A DNA stretch of 36,117 bases from an uncultured Cytophagaceae bacterium (GTDB lineage: Bacteria; Bacteroidota; Bacteroidia; Cytophagales; Spirosomataceae): positions 1-36,117 of the forward strand of contig CAIVPV010000121.1 in NCBI GenBank assembly GCA_903907915.1. Reading direction: 5' to 3'. A program made the translations under genes and the position numbers. The notes under the pieces are model-generated. The model was not told the DNA's origin, made no database searches, and worked only from the letters and a program-made list of their open reading frames with translations. Within the stretch, counting starts at the first letter, position 1. Every line of letters starts with the position of its first letter. Shown piece after piece: positions 27,778 to 36,117 of the stretch.

Positions 27778-29637
27778 TTGTTTACTCAGCGGCGAAATCT
27801 GATTTTCTTGTTTTTCGGAATCATTGGGCTCTTGTTCATTGGGAAGTTGTTTTTCCTGCAAGTGGTCGATGACACGTATGAAAAAGCGGCCGATAATAAT
27901 GCGATTCGGAAGATTATTCAGATTCCTTTTCGAGGCGAAGTTTACGATCGATTTGGTAAATTAATTGTTTATAATACCCCCGTTTACGATTTGTATATGA
28001 TTCCGCGAAAAGCCGTGGTGAAGGATACAAATCATTTTTGTCAAGTGTTTCGGGTGACTAGAGAATATTTCATTAAGACAACTCAGCGGGCAAGGGCCTA
28101 TTCGCGGGTAAAACCAAGTTTATTTTTGAAGCATTTATCGAAAGAAGATTTTGCCAGTGTACAAGATGCTATGGTTGATTTTCCGGGTTTCTTTTTTGAG
28201 ACAAATGCCTTTCGCACCTATCAATCTCGTTCCTTTTCGAATGCCTTAGGTTACGTCGCAGAGATTAGTCCCACTGCCCTTGTTGATCAGAAGGACGATT
28301 ATTACCGCCAAGGGGATTATGTGGGTATTTCTGGAATTGAATCCTTTTATGAGGAAACTTTGCGAGGTCAGAGAGGGGTGAAATACCGCATGGTGAATAG
28401 CAATGGTGTGGAAAAGGGCGATTATAAAAATGGCTCTTTGAACATTAACCCCATATCCGGGAATAATCTATATACCTCTATTGACTTAGAAATTCAGGAA
28501 TATGCAGATAGCTTAATGCAGCATAAGGTAGGTAGTGTCGTGGCCATCGAACCTTCGACTGGAGAAATTTTAGCGATGGTTTCGGCACCGTCTTATGATG
28601 CGAGTCTTTTGACGGGTAATAATTTTTCGAATTACTACCAACAATTAGCCTTGGATCCGATGAAGCCACTGCTAAATCGACCGCCCTCTGCTTATTATCG
28701 CCCGGGTTCTACTTTCAAATTAGTGCAAGCCTTGGTAGGCCAACAACTTGGCTTTATCGGTCCAGGTACGGTCTATTCGCATGCTGGTGCTCCAGTTAAA
28801 TGCCACGTGCACGGACCCGTGGATTTGCGAGGAGCGATTCGCGTGTCTTGTAACCCTTATTTTTATCATGCTTTTCGAAAGATGATTTATGATAATACTT
28901 CCGGAGACACGTATGAGCGTTCGGCTACAGGATTACAACGTTGGGCTGATTTGGTCGCTAATTTTGGGTTTGGACGTAAGTTAGGGGTTGATTTAGGAAA
29001 CGAGAAGAAGGGGATTTTGCCAAACGTAGATTATTATAATGCCGTTTATAAAGGGGAGAAAAGTTGGAAATTTTCTAATATCTATTCGATAAGTATTGGC
29101 GAAGGGGAAATTGTCGTTAGCCCGCTAAAAATGGCAAATTTAGCAGCAATCATCGCTAACAGAGGTTGGTATATTCCGCCTCATGTAGTGAAAGGGGTGG
29201 GTTTAGCAAAAAGCATTGATCCTTTCTATAAAACTCCCGTAAAAGTGGGGGTAGAGGCTAAATATTTCAATGTCGTTATTGATGGAATGCAAGATGCTGT
29301 CGCAAATGGTACGGTGGGTCCAGACGGTAAAATTCCTGACATATTGATGGTGGGTAAAACGGGAACATCCCAAAATCAAAAGGGGAAGGATCACTCGATT
29401 TTTATCGCTTTTGCTCCAAGAGATAATCCGAAGATCGCGATTGCTGTGTTTGTGGAAAATGCGGGTTTCGGTGGTTCTGCTGCAGCTCCTATTGCTTCTT
29501 TAGTAGTTGAAAAATACTTAAAACGGAAAGTGGATCGCAAAGCGGTGGAGACCAAGTTTATGAATATGAATTATTTGCCAAATGCATACGGAGGTATTGT
29601 TCGAAAGAAGCTTGCCATTGATTCAACTAAAAAATGA
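27778..29637 (+). CDS. mrdA: Penicillin-binding protein 2 (class B PBP, elongation)
   Basis: N-terminal TM, PBP dimer region, transpeptidase RPPSAYYRPGSTFKLVQALVG, SCNPYF, VGKTGTSQN. TTG is the only plausible start after the in-frame stop at 27763-27765. Confidence 0.94.
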   Translation: MFTQRRNLIFLFFGIIGLLFIGKLFFLQVVDDTYEKAADNNAIRKIIQIPFRGEVYDRFGKLIVYNTPVYDLYMIPRKAVVKDTNHFCQVFRVTREYFIKTTQRARAYSRVKPSLFLKHLSKEDFASVQDAMVDFPGFFFETNAFRTYQSRSFSNALGYVAEISPTALVDQKDDYYRQGDYVGISGIESFYEETLRGQRGVKYRMVNSNGVEKGDYKNGSLNINPISGNNLYTSIDLEIQEYADSLMQHKVGSVVAIEPSTGEILAMVSAPSYDASLLTGNNFSNYYQQLALDPMKPLLNRPPSAYYRPGSTFKLVQALVGQQLGFIGPGTVYSHAGAPVKCHVHGPVDLRGAIRVSCNPYFYHAFRKMIYDNTSGDTYERSATGLQRWADLVANFGFGRKLGVDLGNEKKGILPNVDYYNAVYKGEKSWKFSNIYSISIGEGEIVVSPLKMANLAAIIANRGWYIPPHVVKGVGLAKSIDPFYKTPVKVGVEAKYFNVVIDGMQDAVANGTVGPDGKIPDILMVGKTGTSQNQKGKDHSIFIAFAPRDNPKIAIAVFVENAGFGGSAAAPIASLVVEKYLKRKVDRKAVETKFMNMNYLPNAYGGIVRKKLAIDSTKK

Positions 29638-30923
29638 CAGATTCGAATCACATACAAGGTCGCCTCGATTGGATCACCGTAGGATTCTATGTCTTTTTCA
29701 TCGGATTAGGCTGGTTGAATATCTATTCGGCGGTCTATAGTCCGGATGCGCCTCTGTCATTCTCAGATCCTGCTTTCTATGATTCGAATGCAGGCAAGCA
29801 ATTAATTTGGATAGGGACAAGTATTATATTAATTATCTGTGTATTGGTGATTGATTTTCGTTTTTTCGAATCCTTTGCTCTCTTTATTTACCTCGGATTA
29901 TTGCTTTTGCTAATCGCTGTGCCTTTTTTAGGGGTAACGATCAATGGATCACATTCTTGGTTTAAATTTGGAAGTGCCACCATTCAGCCTGCTGAATTTG
30001 CTAAAACAGCCACCGCCCTTTTACTAGCGAAATACCTGAATGATCCGTTGGTTAACTTGAGTAAATTTCCATTTCAATGGAAAGTAGCCTTGATTATATT
30101 GATTCCTATGCTTTTGATTATTGGTTCGAATGAGACGGGTTCTGCCTTGGTTTTTGCCTCCTTCATCATTCTATTGTACCGGGAGGGCTTGCCAGGCACC
30201 TATCCCGCTCTATTTATTGGGGGAATTGCACTTTTTGTATCGGCCTTGCTTGTGAAGGCCTGGGTGATCTTACTTGTGTTGGTGTTATTAGCAGGCCTTT
30301 TGGTGTTATTTATGCCGATTTATATGCAGAGGGACCCCAAGACCTATTTACGTCTTTCAGGAGCCATTGCTGGAATTATGACCTTGGCTTTATTAGTGGA
30401 CTGGGTAGTGAATAATGTCTTAAAAGAACACCAAAGAAACCGTATTCGCGTGTTAATTGATCCAGGATTTGATCCTCGAGGTCTAGGTTACCAGGTGACA
30501 CAATCGAAAATTGCGATTGGATCTGGGGGATTTTGGGGGAAGGGTTTTTTAGGAGGGACGCAAACAAAATTTGATTTCGTTCCGGAGCAAAGTACCGACA
30601 TGGTATTCTGTACCATTGGGGAAGAGCACGGCTTTATTGGTGTGATGTTAATGATTCTACTTTTCCTGGGTTTCCTTTGGCGATTAATGTATTTAGCGGA
30701 TTTGCAGCGCTCCCGTTTTGCACGAGCCTATGGGTATGGATTAGTAGGAATTCTATTTTTTCACTTTTTAGTTAATATAGGGATGACGATTGGCTTGATG
30801 CCCATTATGGGAATCCCATTGCCATTTTTCAGTTATGGTGGATCGTCTTTATGGTCTTTCACCATTTTGCTATTTATCTTTTTAAAACTAGACTCTCACC
30901 GGTCGGATATGCTTTCTCGCTAG
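29634..30923 (+). CDS. rodA: Rod shape-determining protein RodA (SEDS glycosyltransferase)
   Basis: SEDS features: INGSHSWFKFGSATIQPAEFAK, EQSTDMVFCTIGEEHGFIG, GLMPIMGIPLPFFSYGGSSLW; ATGA overlap with PBP2. Confidence 0.95.
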   Translation: MTDSNHIQGRLDWITVGFYVFFIGLGWLNIYSAVYSPDAPLSFSDPAFYDSNAGKQLIWIGTSIILIICVLVIDFRFFESFALFIYLGLLLLLIAVPFLGVTINGSHSWFKFGSATIQPAEFAKTATALLLAKYLNDPLVNLSKFPFQWKVALIILIPMLLIIGSNETGSALVFASFIILLYREGLPGTYPALFIGGIALFVSALLVKAWVILLVLVLLAGLLVLFMPIYMQRDPKTYLRLSGAIAGIMTLALLVDWVVNNVLKEHQRNRIRVLIDPGFDPRGLGYQVTQSKIAIGSGGFWGKGFLGGTQTKFDFVPEQSTDMVFCTIGEEHGFIGVMLMILLFLGFLWRLMYLADLQRSRFARAYGYGLVGILFFHFLVNIGMTIGLMPIMGIPLPFFSYGGSSLWSFTILLFIFLKLDSHRSDMLSR

Positions 30924-30924
30924 T

Positions 30925-32157
30925 ATGGAAAACGAAACAATTTCTACTAAGGCTAAAATGCTCATCGCTGTCGCCGCTCTCGGCTACTTCGTGGATGTGT
31001 ATGATTTAATTTTATTCTCGGTTGTGAGAAATCCTAGCTTGATAAGCCTAGGATTAAAAGGCAATGACTTATTGAATCAGGGTTTGAACTTGATGAATGT
31101 CCAAATGGGCGGAATGTTGATAGGCGGAATTTTGTGGGGAATTTATGGCGATAAAAAAGGCCGAAAATCGGTATTATTCGGGTCTATTTTATTGTATTCT
31201 GCCGCCAATGCGTTGAATGGATTAGTAACTGATTTGAATACCTACGCTATCTTGCGTTTTATTGCAGGAATAGGGCTTGCAGGTGAATTAGGAGCTGGGA
31301 TTACGCTGGTAAATGAAACTTTGCCGCCATCCAAGCGAGGCATCGGAACCTTAATTATTGCAGGTGTGGGCGCAGCTGGTGCTGTTTTTGCCCCCATCAT
31401 TGCGGGCTTAAGTACGGATCCCGAGTGGTGGAGATCTTGCTATTTTATAGGTGGAGGAATGGGATTAGCGCTCTTACTTTTGCGTTTAGGGACATTCGAA
31501 TCATCCATGTATACGGAAATGGATGATAAGGTTGAACGAGGAAATTTCTTTCAGTTATTTCAAAATCCAGCGACTTTTAAAAAATACCTGTATTGTATTT
31601 TGATGGGCTTGCCTATTTGGTATATCATTGGAATTTTGGTCTTTTCAGCACCTGAAATTTCGAAGCTGATAGGCATCGATGGAAAAATCAGTGGCGGGGA
31701 TGCGATTATGTTTTGCTATATAGGTCTTGCCACGGGGGACTTTGCGGCTGGCGCCCTAAGTCAATGGCTGAAGAGCCGCGGAAAAGCTGTTTTAACCTAT
31801 TTATTTATTGCGGTAGGGATTTGCGTGTATTATCTCTTTGGGATGTCTAATATTACTACCACGCATGCTTATGTGATGATTACCTTGCTAGGTTTCTTTG
31901 GAGGTTATTGGGCCGTATTTTTGACCTTTTCGTCAGAACAGTTTGGGACGAATGTTCGAATGACCGTTACGACGACGGTACCTAATTTTGTTCGTGGCGC
32001 ACTAATTCCTATTTCTTTGCTCTTTAAGTTTTTAATTCCATCCGTAGGCTTGATTCATTCTGCGGCCTATGTAGGAATTTTATGCTTTGCTTTGGCCATC
32101 TATTCCGTCTATCAACTGAAGGAAACGTTTGGTAAATCCTTAGACTATACCGAATAA
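30925..32157 (+). CDS. MFS transporter
   Basis: 12-TM profile; GDKKGRKSVLFGSILLYSAANAL (motif A), ILRFIAGIGLAGELGAGITLVNETLPPSKRG resembles metabolite:H+ symporter-type MFS proteins. Confidence 0.9.
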   Translation: MENETISTKAKMLIAVAALGYFVDVYDLILFSVVRNPSLISLGLKGNDLLNQGLNLMNVQMGGMLIGGILWGIYGDKKGRKSVLFGSILLYSAANALNGLVTDLNTYAILRFIAGIGLAGELGAGITLVNETLPPSKRGIGTLIIAGVGAAGAVFAPIIAGLSTDPEWWRSCYFIGGGMGLALLLLRLGTFESSMYTEMDDKVERGNFFQLFQNPATFKKYLYCILMGLPIWYIIGILVFSAPEISKLIGIDGKISGGDAIMFCYIGLATGDFAAGALSQWLKSRGKAVLTYLFIAVGICVYYLFGMSNITTTHAYVMITLLGFFGGYWAVFLTFSSEQFGTNVRMTVTTTVPNFVRGALIPISLLFKFLIPSVGLIHSAAYVGILCFALAIYSVYQLKETFGKSLDYTE

Positions 32158-33179
32158 TGGCCCTTATTTCGAAAAAGAAGACCCTTTATCGGATTAACCA
32201 ACAGCTTCGCAGGTATTTACATAAATACAACCGGGAGCATGAGATGAATATTAGCTATACTGATCTGTTGCGCTATGATAATTCTATTGTTCTTTATGAT
32301 AAGAATGAAGTGGATACCCTTTGGGAGACAGTTTTTTACTCTCCGGGCGATCAAAAAGATGTGTATGAAGCTTTGAAACAAATCTATGCCGATTTAAAAA
32401 CGGATGGGAATGAGGAGGTAATTAAGCACTTAGTGATCGATCGGGTGGATTATTGTACGTATGGAAATACGCATCCCTTTCGGATTCGGATTGTGAATCG
32501 GGTGAATGATAACTTTGATTATTTCTACATTAAAATTGCGGATGCATCTCGTGTTTACGGGCTGGAATTAGAACATATTTTATCGCCCAATAGAATCAAT
32601 TATATCACCTGTGATAATACCTTGGTAGAGGAACATATTGCGGGTGTGCCTGGTGACGCATTTCTTAAGCAAGATTTGGAGAAAGATTTAGAGTCCCCTA
32701 TTCGACTTGCAAAGGAATTTGTCAAATTTAATGAGCGTTGTCTTGTCCAATTATTGGGGGATATGCATTCGGCCAATTTTGTCGTGATTACGACGCCAGA
32801 TTTTGAGGAGATATATTATCGAATACGCCCCATTGACTTTGATCAGCAATGTTATGAGGGTAAGAAATCGGTTTATTTGCCACAATATTTCAAGCAAAAT
32901 AATGCCTTAATAGAATTGGGGATGAAATATATGACACCGGAATCGGTTTGGCAATATCAAATAGAAGAGCGTTCGATGATCGCCTCTCGATTAAAGTCAG
33001 AGAGTCAACGGGTGTATGACTTAATGGATGTGATGTCAAAAGATGAGATAGCTCCTCCAGATAATATGGAGCAATTGAAATCGGAATTAGCCAAGCATTA
33101 CGAGGATGATCGCTTCTTACACTGTAAGACGATGGGGGAGATTGTTTGGTTAAGTCTTGAATTAGTGATGCGCCACTAA
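32157..33179 (+). CDS. Uncharacterised protein with protein kinase-like/APH-like catalytic motifs
   Basis: 340 aa; candidate beta3 Lys (FYIKIADASRVYGLELEHIL, K126 with E137/E139), hinge-like LVEEHIAGVPGDAFL, catalytic loop GDMHSANFVV (aa 201-210), metal-binding IDFD (aa 226-229). TAATG coupling to upstream MFS gene. Confidence 0.7.
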   Translation: MALISKKKTLYRINQQLRRYLHKYNREHEMNISYTDLLRYDNSIVLYDKNEVDTLWETVFYSPGDQKDVYEALKQIYADLKTDGNEEVIKHLVIDRVDYCTYGNTHPFRIRIVNRVNDNFDYFYIKIADASRVYGLELEHILSPNRINYITCDNTLVEEHIAGVPGDAFLKQDLEKDLESPIRLAKEFVKFNERCLVQLLGDMHSANFVVITTPDFEEIYYRIRPIDFDQQCYEGKKSVYLPQYFKQNNALIELGMKYMTPESVWQYQIEERSMIASRLKSESQRVYDLMDVMSKDEIAPPDNMEQLKSELAKHYEDDRFLHCKTMGEIVWLSLELVMRH

Positions 33180-33551
33180 TTATTTCTTAAAGATGGACCA
33201 CATCATCAATCCATATCCCATTAAATAGGATAATCCGCCTATCGGGGCAATTGCTCCGAATATGCTCCGATTAGTCAGGCAAATTAAATACAAAGATCCA
33301 GGAAAGAGGATGCATCCTGCGAAATGGAAATAGGCCGCTGTCTTTAAGTGTTTATTGCTGAAGTTCATCTGCCAAACACCTAAAATCAACAAAGTGATTC
33401 CTCCATACATTTGGTACCGAGCAGCCGTCTCAAAAGTCTCTAAACGATTAATTCCGCGTAAATAATCCTTCCAGGCATGCGCACCGAAAGCGCCCAAGGC
33501 AACGGATATGCCTGCCATCAAAGACCCCGAAAATAAAGCAAATTTTTTCAT
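33180..33551 (-). CDS. DUF423 family small membrane protein
   Basis: FSGSLMAGISVALGAFGAHAWKDYL, ARYQMYGGITLLILGV, FPGSLYLICLTN, APIGGLSYLMGYGLM are typical of DUF423. Confidence 0.92.
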   Translation of the reverse strand: MKKFALFSGSLMAGISVALGAFGAHAWKDYLRGINRLETFETAARYQMYGGITLLILGVWQMNFSNKHLKTAAYFHFAGCILFPGSLYLICLTNRSIFGAIAPIGGLSYLMGYGLMMWSIFKK

Positions 33552-33582
33552 AAGGAATGCGCGCGACGCGATTTAGGGCAAG

Positions 33583-33610
33583 AAAAAGGCCCTGTTTCCA
33601 AGGCCTTTTA
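33583..33610 (-). terminator. Intrinsic terminator after atpH
   Basis: On minus strand: aaaaggcc-ttggaaacag-ggcctttttctt, between atpH stop (33613) and DUF423 start (33551). Confidence 0.7.
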
Positions 33611-33612
33611 CA

Positions 33613-34149
33613 TTAAGATGCTAAAGAAACTTTCAAATCGTTTAGCTTCCGCTTAATCGAATCATCGATTTGTCGGTCACCTACCTTTAAGATAAAACCG
33701 CCTATTAGGCTTTCATCTATTTGTTCGATTAATTCCACTTCTTTACCGGTATAATCTTTCACAATTTTCGATACCGTTGCTTTCTGATCTGCTGTTAAAG
33801 AAGACGCAGTCGTAACTGTAGCCTTTTGGATTCCTTTAAAATCTGTGTACATCGATATAAATTCTTTCGCTACAGCAGGAAGAATTTTCTCTCGGTTTTT
33901 ATTCGTGATAATCACGAAGATACCATAAGTCAAAGGATTGAATTTATCCTTAAAAAGCTTCGCTAGGATAGCTAACTTCGTATAATGCTTGATGATTGGG
34001 CTCTTAAGCGCTAAAACTAATTCAGTACTTCCTTCGCAAGTTTCTGCGAAATCGATCATATCCTTAGCCACAGCCTCTACCGCATTCTTTTCGATGGCGT
34101 AGTCTAGCAGTGATTTAGCGTAACGGTGAGCTACAATTAATTCTGACAT
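33613..34149 (-). CDS. atpH: F0F1 ATP synthase subunit delta
   Basis: VAHRYAKSLLDYAIEKNAVEAV, ATVTTASSLTADQKATVSKIV, IDESLIGGFILKVGDRQIDDSIKRKLNDLK. Confidence 0.96.
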   Translation of the reverse strand: MSELIVAHRYAKSLLDYAIEKNAVEAVAKDMIDFAETCEGSTELVLALKSPIIKHYTKLAILAKLFKDKFNPLTYGIFVIITNKNREKILPAVAKEFISMYTDFKGIQKATVTTASSLTADQKATVSKIVKDYTGKEVELIEQIDESLIGGFILKVGDRQIDDSIKRKLNDLKVSLAS

Positions 34150-34160
34150 GGTCTATTCGA

Positions 34161-34655
34161 TTAAGATAATTTAACGTCAGCCATCCACTCAGTGACTAAT
34201 TTCTCCTGAGTTGCTTTGTCTTTTAATTGGCTTTTTAACACTTTCTCTGCTAAATCTAAAGAAAGTGATGCTGCTTCCTTACGGATCGCTGCTACGGCAC
34301 TTGATTTTTCTTGTTCGAAGGCTACACGAGCTTTTTCGATTTCTTGATTAGCTGCCGTTTGTGCATCTAACTTCGCTTGAGAAATCATCGCATCGGATGC
34401 TTCTTTCGCTTGTTTGATCAAGGCATCTCTTTCTGCACGTGCCGAAGCGATTAATTGCTCATTACCTGCTTTCAATTCAGCCATTTCAGCACGCGTTGTT
34501 TCAGATAACTTGATGGCCTCGTCGATCGATTGTTCGCGCTCCGCTAATGATTGAATGATGGGCTTCCAAGCATATTTGGCTAAAAGGAAAAATAAAATTC
34601 CAAAGACAATTAGTTGCCAGAAGATAAGTCCAAAGTCTGGGGTGATTAACTCCAT
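34161..34655 (-). CDS. atpF: F0F1 ATP synthase subunit b
   Basis: N-terminal TM PDFGLIFWQLIVFGILFFLLAKYAWKPI then long charged helix. Confidence 0.96.
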   Translation of the reverse strand: MELITPDFGLIFWQLIVFGILFFLLAKYAWKPIIQSLAEREQSIDEAIKLSETTRAEMAELKAGNEQLIASARAERDALIKQAKEASDAMISQAKLDAQTAANQEIEKARVAFEQEKSSAVAAIRKEAASLSLDLAEKVLKSQLKDKATQEKLVTEWMADVKLS

Positions 34656-34685
34656 AGTATTTTAATTTAATGTAAATCGTTTCAA

Positions 34686-34726
34686 AAAACGCAATTTGGC
34701 ACCTAATGTAAACCAAATTGCGTTTT
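34686..34726 (-). terminator. Terminator/attenuator-like hairpin between atpE and atpF
   Basis: 14-bp perfect stem aaaacgcaatttgg / ccaaattgcgtttt with 13-nt loop; minus-strand 3' side continues as TTTTTT. Confidence 0.75.
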
Positions 34727-34781
34727 AAATGGGGTAGAATCAAATACAAAGGCTAACCCTTTGGAGATTCTGATTGGTATC

Positions 34782-35027
34782 TTATTTCAAAGTTACCAAT
34801 AGACAAATTACTGCTGCGAATAACGCAACCGCCTCCACGAAGGCAGCAACGATCAACATCGCACCTTGAATTTTTCCAGATGCTTCTGGTTGGCGAGCGA
34901 TAGCTTCCATAGCAGAACCACCGATACGGCCGATACCAACTCCAGCTCCTAAAGCAGCTAAACCAGCACCAATACCTGCAAGACCAAGACCTACAGAAAC
35001 TTCTAATAAAATCGATAAAATAGACAT
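34782..35027 (-). CDS. atpE: F0F1 ATP synthase subunit c
   Basis: Hairpin proteolipid GLGLAGIGAGLAALGAGVGIGRIGGSAMEAIARQPEASGKIQGAMLIVAAFVEAVALFAAVICLLV, with conserved Glu. Confidence 0.97.
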   Translation of the reverse strand: MSILSILLEVSVGLGLAGIGAGLAALGAGVGIGRIGGSAMEAIARQPEASGKIQGAMLIVAAFVEAVALFAAVICLLVTLK

Positions 35028-35064
35028 ACGATTTGGGTTTATATAATAAAAAAAAATTTACAAA

Positions 35065-36117
35065 TTAATGATGATGCTCCTCTACCGCCGAACCGATATA
35101 GTTCGAAACTAACATCGTAAAGATGAAGGCTTGGATGAAGGCAACAATTAGCTCAATTACGTTCATGAAAAGTGAGAAAGGAACTACTGCTAGTCCTAAA
35201 GCCGCGTTTTCAAAAATGAAAATCAAGGATACTAAACTTAATAAAATGATGTGACCTGCGGTGATATTCGCGAACAAACGAACCATTAAAGAGAACGGTT
35301 TCATGAAAACACCGACAATTTCTACTGGAGTTAAAATAACTAGCATCCATTTAGGAACACCTGGCATCGCGAAGATGTGAGTCCAATAGGTAGAACGTCC
35401 ATTTACATTCGTTACAATAAAAGCGATGATCGCTAAAACTAATGTTACGGCTATATTACCCGTCACGTTTGCTCCACCCGGAATCAGGCCTAACATATTG
35501 TTGAACCAAATAAAGAAGAAGATCGTCAATAAATAAGGCATAAAACGACGGTAGTGTTTCTCGCCAATGTTATTTTTTGCAATCTCGTCACGAACAAAAA
35601 TAATGATCGGCTCGAACATCGATTGTAAACCTTTAGGTGCTCTATGTGGATTATCTTGGTATTTTTTACCAATACCGATGAAGATGGTCAATAATAAAAC
35701 AGCTGATAGAAATAAGGAGGCTACATTTTTCGTAATCGAAACATCATATACCTTCTCGCCATTTTCTGCGTGAATTTTTCCATGCTCTAAAACGAAACCA
35801 TTGTAAGGGATCTCCTCGTGGTGCTCGTTTTTGAAATTAGAAGATGAAAATACTTGCAGACCTGCTGATGCTGTGTAAACAATACAAGGAAGTGGTAGGG
35901 TAGCATGGAAATGACCTACTGTGAAGAAGTGCCATTCGTGTTCATCCGCAATGTGGTGAAGAATTAGTTTACCCGGATCGAATTTCTCCGTTTTAGCTTC
36001 AGCTGGAGCAGCCGTTTCCTTCGCCTCAGAAGTAGGAGCTGCAGCGGGTTCGTTTGCGAACGCCGATAAGCTAATAAAGCTGAGGAATAGCCCTAGTAGG
36101 ATATTCGAAAAGTACAT
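35065..36117 (-). CDS. atpB: F0F1 ATP synthase subunit a (start codon at window edge)
   Basis: Signal-peptide-like N-terminus then subunit a features (LLTIFFFIWFNNMLGLIPGGANVTGNIAVTL, SLMVRLFANITAGHIILLSLVSL, FIQAFIFTMLVSNYIGSA). Confidence 0.95.
   Translation of the reverse strand: MYFSNILLGLFLSFISLSAFANEPAAAPTSEAKETAAPAEAKTEKFDPGKLILHHIADEHEWHFFTVGHFHATLPLPCIVYTASAGLQVFSSSNFKNEHHEEIPYNGFVLEHGKIHAENGEKVYDVSITKNVASLFLSAVLLLTIFIGIGKKYQDNPHRAPKGLQSMFEPIIIFVRDEIAKNNIGEKHYRRFMPYLLTIFFFIWFNNMLGLIPGGANVTGNIAVTLVLAIIAFIVTNVNGRSTYWTHIFAMPGVPKWMLVILTPVEIVGVFMKPFSLMVRLFANITAGHIILLSLVSLIFIFENAALGLAVVPFSLFMNVIELIVAFIQAFIFTMLVSNYIGSAVEEHHH

Follow-up and report, generated by a model that had tools for sequence, protein, structure and literature searches.

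Three questions are raised by a gene at the end of a short array in an uncultured Cytophagaceae bacterium: whether its product is an enzyme of the protein-kinase-like (PKL) superfamily, to which kinase family it would belong, and whether it acts together with the transporter whose gene it overlaps. The gene lies in a stretch of DNA of 36,117 nucleotides (the window; contig CAIVPV010000121.1 of assembly GCA_903907915.1), where a PBP2-type gene, a RodA-type gene, a gene for an MFS transporter and the gene in question, here termed KIN, follow one another head to tail, overlapping or separated by a few bases (Table 1). As the initial annotation had stated, the start codon of KIN overlaps the stop codon of the MFS gene: the TAA at 32155-32157 and the ATG at 32157-32159 have one base in common within TAATG (32155-32159), and the sequence across this junction is GAATAATGGCC. 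A promoter scan at the KIN locus performed no better than it did on shuffled sequences. Downstream, positions 33180-36117 of the window are occupied on the minus strand by the DUF423 gene, a neighbor that is retained across much of the window's family (Spirosomataceae), and then by the ATP synthase genes atpH, atpF, atpE and atpB, as read from the sequence.

Table 1. Features of the KIN locus, with positions numbered from the first base of the window
Feature	Position	Strand	Basis or remark
PBP2-type gene, first of the pbp2-rodA-MFS-KIN array	27778..29637	+	called by sequence reading, not library scan
RodA-type (SEDS) gene	29634..30923	+	called by sequence reading, not library scan
MFS transporter (PF07690)	30925..32157	+	1-base overlap with KIN; lineage-specific partner
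KIN (kinase-fold protein, 340 aa)	32157..33179	+	ORF and translation; full-length homologues; two predicted models
beta-3 Lys K126 codon (ATP-binding Lys position)	32532..32534	+	invariant in 130 sequences; end of model strand 120-127
alpha-C Glu E139 codon	32571..32573	+	129/130 (Asp once); in model helix 130-142
catalytic loop LGDMHSANFV, residues 200-209	32754..32783	+	D202 and N207 invariant; position 204 His or Arg
metal-binding motif IDFDQQ, residues 226-231, DFG position	32832..32849	+	six of six residues invariant in 130 sequences
DUF423 protein, convergent, downstream of KIN	33180..33551	-	PF04241, E 5.5e-25

Kinase motifs and the predicted fold

The ordered series of kinase motifs that had been recognized in KIN by eye is present in its entirety, comprising IK (K126), LELE (E137/E139), a hinge-like motif (VEEHIAGVPGDAF) that starts at V157, GDMHSANFVV (D202, N207) and IDFD (D227, D229). 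Conservation was assessed in an alignment of 130 KIN homologues sharing 38-96% identity, proteins from further Bacteroidota genomes included, in which 39 positions are invariant. K126, E158, H160, G201, D202, M203 and N207 are kept in every one of the 130 homologues, as are I226, D227, F228, D229, Q230 and Q231; E139 is conserved in all but one, and H204 of the GDMH motif is replaced by Arg in 43. The residues on which the initial annotation had staked its proposal (K126, D202, N207 and D227/D229) are all among these invariant positions, and the probability that all five would fall there by chance is about 2e-5. The set of residues expected of the PKL superfamily, namely a beta3 Lys, an alphaC Glu, a catalytic Asp, an Asn five positions on and a metal-binding Asp, is found in the proper order and conserved.

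Two AlphaFold2 models were obtained, one of the window protein (model 1; 61 homologues, pLDDT 88, pTM 0.86) and one of a relative from another family that is 46% identical to it (model 2; 50 homologues, pLDDT 93, pTM 0.88). In both, the first 90 residues or so form an N-terminal helix followed by a beta hairpin and a helix. Strands 1-3 come next, the third of them ending with K126; helix C, which bears E139, leads on to strands 4-5 and to a hinge in which the invariant residues E158 and H160 lie; and the chain continues through helices D and E and the catalytic loop to a hairpin, the IDFD motif and a helical C-lobe. These elements, through to beta7-8, follow one another in kinase order, and both models predict a bilobal kinase fold. 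Foldseek searches of the PDB at E <= 1e-3 returned 24 matches for model 1 and 139 for model 2; the matches listed are kinases or pseudokinases, at probabilities of up to 1.0 and with TM-scores of only about 0.2-0.4, and the leading matches in a structural library of viral proteins are mostly Ser/Thr kinases. The kinase-like fold proposed at the outset is borne out by the two predicted models and the listed Foldseek matches, and membership of KIN in the kinase superfamily is supported at the level of these predictions. No solved kinase gives a high TM-score, so the C-lobe of KIN would be divergent or oddly placed. The top match shifts between the models, from the PI3K Vps34 (model 1) to the JH2 domain of JAK2 and LegK4 (model 2). 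PI3K was dropped as a candidate for the closest relative of KIN, since the model 1 match was not reproduced with the better model 2.

Relation to known kinase families

The first reading of the sequence had placed KIN in no known kinase subfamily, and the database comparisons agree. The Pfam kinase models gave no match at E <= 1 in the approximately 110 KIN members scanned (the window protein plus sets of 61 and 50), the NCBIfam kinase models matched neither the window protein nor any of 50 members, and searches of PDB sequences with the KIN protein and two profiles found no kinase. PADLOC and PHROGs likewise yielded nothing meaningful, and across all five resources, whether queried with single proteins or with alignments, only chance-level matches to proteins other than kinases were obtained. 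A literature search, whose coverage ran without the 2020 review of bacterial kinase-like families, found no description of the KIN family.

The likeness to APH and choline kinases claimed in the initial annotation holds for the motif and was not borne out by profile comparison. GDM[HR]xxN followed by IDFD, an APH-type loop, occurs in all 130 homologues, a motif that is common to other PKL families and so is not decisive. The APH/choline-kinase-like proteins (PF01636, including SrkA) have the same GDxHxxN loop followed by D-[aromatic/hydrophobic]-D/E, and they too are stand-alone cytosolic enzymes of similar size. KIN differs from them in the absence of any PF01636 match in the scanned members (E <= 1) and in possessing its own N-terminal 90 residues and IDFDQQ/YLPQ segments. 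Profile-profile comparisons by hhalign with APH (17 proteins), HipA and DUF2252 profiles drawn from related genomes were not significant, the DUF2252 profile being a weak test as it was built from two sequences only; the D-x-H-x-x-N loop was the only part to align, with HipA and DUF2252. Assignment of KIN to the APH/choline kinases would thus be an assignment by motif alone.

Other families show comparable mixtures of likeness and difference. The PI3/PI4 kinases (PF00454) share a DxHxxN-type loop with KIN and furnished the top Foldseek match of model 1 (Vps34; E 1e-5, TM 0.35-0.41), but KIN has DFD in place of DFG in all 130 sequences, has no PF00454 match and does not have these kinases as the top match of model 2; PF00454 is also absent from 39 related genomes. 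HipA (PF07804) has the DxHxxN loop, in the form DxHxKN at the HipA loci compared, together with a kinase-like fold, and the genome of the window carries two true HipA_C genes. KIN, however, has no HipA_C match, no significant profile similarity to HipA and no HipB-like neighbor in the clustered neighborhoods. Members of DUF2252 (PF10009) carry GDxHxxNF followed by a DFD-type motif. Their N- and C-lobes are described as flipped (PMC9758233), whereas in KIN K126 precedes D202, the modeled lobes stand in normal order and no PF10009 match is found. The classical protein kinases, represented by the structures of JAK2 JH2, LegK4 and LIMK1, match KIN at Foldseek probabilities of 0.96-1.00, but with only 10-14% identity and TM-scores of 0.2-0.4, and KIN has no HRD motif (GD[M] instead), no APE motif and no PF00069 match.

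Kinase-fold families are still being added singly to the superfamily, and the KINtaro catalogue now holds 72 PKL families, with 32 of its families missing from domain databases (PMC10870513). The best reading of the comparisons is that KIN would found an unnamed PKL family that is confined, in the genomes sampled, to Bacteroidota and its near relatives; this family appears to be uncatalogued as judged by Pfam, NCBIfam, PDB, PADLOC and PHROGs.

Distribution and changing neighbors

Relatives of KIN occur on at least 588 GTDB genome contigs, and the best 80 of these, all full length and 54-96% identical to the window protein, belong to Cytophagales, Saprospiria, Chitinophagales and one Rhodothermota MAG. 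The gene is carried by 81 of 297 genomes in an even sample of the phylum, by 104 of 296 in a class sample and by 101 of 121 genomes of the window's family, and it is present in a single copy, nearly always full length, in about 80/81, 103/104 and 100/101 of the positive genomes, respectively. A dN/dS of about 0.01 relative to the nearest relatives, at saturated dS, indicates strong purifying selection. KIN is a chromosomal gene, and carriage by mobile elements was rejected, as plasmids, phages and viral contigs gave no match. Nor is it essential: the window's family includes several genera without it, and its loss there argues against an essential role. In one genome of this family (G250), a decayed remnant with in-frame stops (L129:8188-8456) lies beside the same genes that flank the intact KIN of Spirosoma sordidisoli (L025).

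Of 40 copies from the window's family in the KIN tree, 4 are placed by supported branches among other families, a pattern suggestive of the replacement of some copies through lateral transfer. The KIN proteins of L208, L209, L210 and L212, which belong to the window's family and group with other families, are only 47-54% identical to that of the window. Just one sampled genome (G091; loci L107 and L108) has two full-length copies; that of L108, at 38% identity and on a long branch, has nonetheless retained all catalytic residues.

The gene upstream of KIN differs from lineage to lineage. Outside the window's family, this position is taken by genes for DUF3817, glycosyltransferases, a BshA-like glycosyltransferase, LytTR regulators, flavodoxin, bestrophin, malic enzyme, DnaJ, an AspRS-like synthetase and others, and the gap between KIN and its neighbor is below 30 bp in 58 of 97 co-directional cases. 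With partners so varied and gaps so short, KIN tends to close lineage-specific operons, whichever each lineage offers. One such operon, in Cyclobacteriaceae, consists of pcm-like, thioesterase-like, DUF3817 and KIN genes and also encodes a conserved protein, about 190-235 aa long, that has no Pfam match (L012:3955-4659, with homologues in 25 loci). A link to bacillithiol, suggested by the BshA-like neighbor in one lineage, was discarded; BshC is present in 290/297 genomes vs 81 for KIN, and the profile is uninformative.

Predicted activity and competing explanations

Taken from its conserved residues and predicted structure, KIN is probably a real and active kinase-fold enzyme. We give a probability of about one half to the reading that it is a catalytically competent, cytosolic, stand-alone kinase-fold phosphotransferase of an unnamed PKL family, most likely with one fixed ligand. 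From the invariant residue set, binding of ATP-Mg and phosphotransfer are predicted: K126 and E139 would hold ATP, D202 would act as the catalytic base, and N207 and D227, with D229, would hold Mg. The reaction that we infer, in its ATP use, catalysis and substrate class alike, would be an ATP-dependent phosphotransfer. A fixed ligand is suggested because conservation extends over the entire N-lobe, the helix that precedes the catalytic loop (KEFVKFNER), DFD-QQ and YLPQ, and because KIN works in a variety of unrelated operons with no regulator, antitoxin, sensor or membrane module. KIN would phosphorylate this one ligand, more probably a small metabolite than a set of proteins. The choice of a small molecule over a range of proteins draws on the conservation pattern and the acidic DFD, and we place about as much trust as doubt in it; the wide conservation could equally fit a protein partner.

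It is accordingly conceivable, if doubtful, that KIN resembles SrkA or HipA in being a regulatory protein kinase, one that modifies Ser/Thr, or another residue, of a core cellular protein. The Foldseek matches of the better model are mostly protein kinases, conservation this extreme would also fit a conserved protein partner, and the DxHxxN loop is that of HipA and SrkA-type kinases; however, KIN matches none of HipA_C, Pkinase and APH, adjoins no HipB-like or sensor partner, and has no conserved operon partner that could serve as its target.

The functional tie to the MFS transporter put forward in the initial annotation, whereby KIN would phosphorylate an imported compound (metabolic trapping) or control the transporter, is unlikely. 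The TAATG overlap speaks for it, as do 7 genera of the window's family in which an MFS gene lies upstream of KIN at distances from -1 to a few hundred bases, but neighborhood conservation, which that annotation had named as a check, shows a partner that changes between lineages. By comparison of listed positions, the MFS gene is directly upstream of KIN in 22/101 genomes of this family and is missing there in 27 of its 34 genera; among 40 family loci read, it holds that place in 11, while RodA is the direct upstream neighbor, with MFS missing there, in at least 10. Outside the family, MFS was found in none of the upstream genes tested. Orthologous MFS genes are also found elsewhere than beside KIN, including in genomes that lack it. 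In the MFS tree, KIN-adjacent transporters fall in more than one branch, with at least 4 label changes forced by supported branches, and the pairing may therefore have arisen repeatedly; either the pair is old in this family and has come apart often, or it was formed more than once, and repeated formation, if true, would be a hint of function. Four genomes without KIN (G358, G390, G412 and G427) carry an MFS gene of the same subfamily, and two of these, G390 and G412, were placed in the tree, where their transporters cluster with those adjacent to KIN in genus g174. What the one-base overlap in the window shows is co-expression rather than joint function, and the transporter is at most an accessory partner that is co-expressed with KIN in one branch of the family.

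A role as a cell-wall or cell-shape factor tied to PBP2 and RodA, the older neighbors within the family, is very improbable: the pbp2-rodA-KIN order recurs in many genera of the window's family, with some gaps of 2-3 bp, but was not found outside it, where KIN stands beside such genes as those for DUF3817, response regulators and malic enzyme. The canonical phosphotransfer residues are all invariant in the KIN family, and we know of no pseudokinase with an alternative chemistry of which the same can be said. It is thus hardly to be expected that KIN keeps the kinase fold for another chemistry, such as AMPylation or glutamylation, although its C-lobe appears divergent and SelO and SidJ set a precedent in the PKL superfamily (PMC10870513).

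The KIN family is an unusual one, with housekeeping-level conservation as a single-copy gene in hundreds of environmental Bacteroidota species and yet no Pfam or NCBIfam model, so that its members would all be annotated "hypothetical protein". The locus also holds a lesson on genomic context, in that a gene sharing one base with a transporter gene gave the impression of a functional pair, but the partner varies by lineage. Our tentative suggestion is that KIN might represent a kinase family exclusive to Bacteroidota and its near relatives, without sequence-level kinship to any catalogued kinase family, and that its target might be a metabolite or core protein whose phosphorylation is not known; if true, such a family would constitute an overlooked piece of the basic physiology of the phylum. 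Knowing the substrate of KIN would account for a conserved reaction in a major phylum, and hundreds of genes could then be named.
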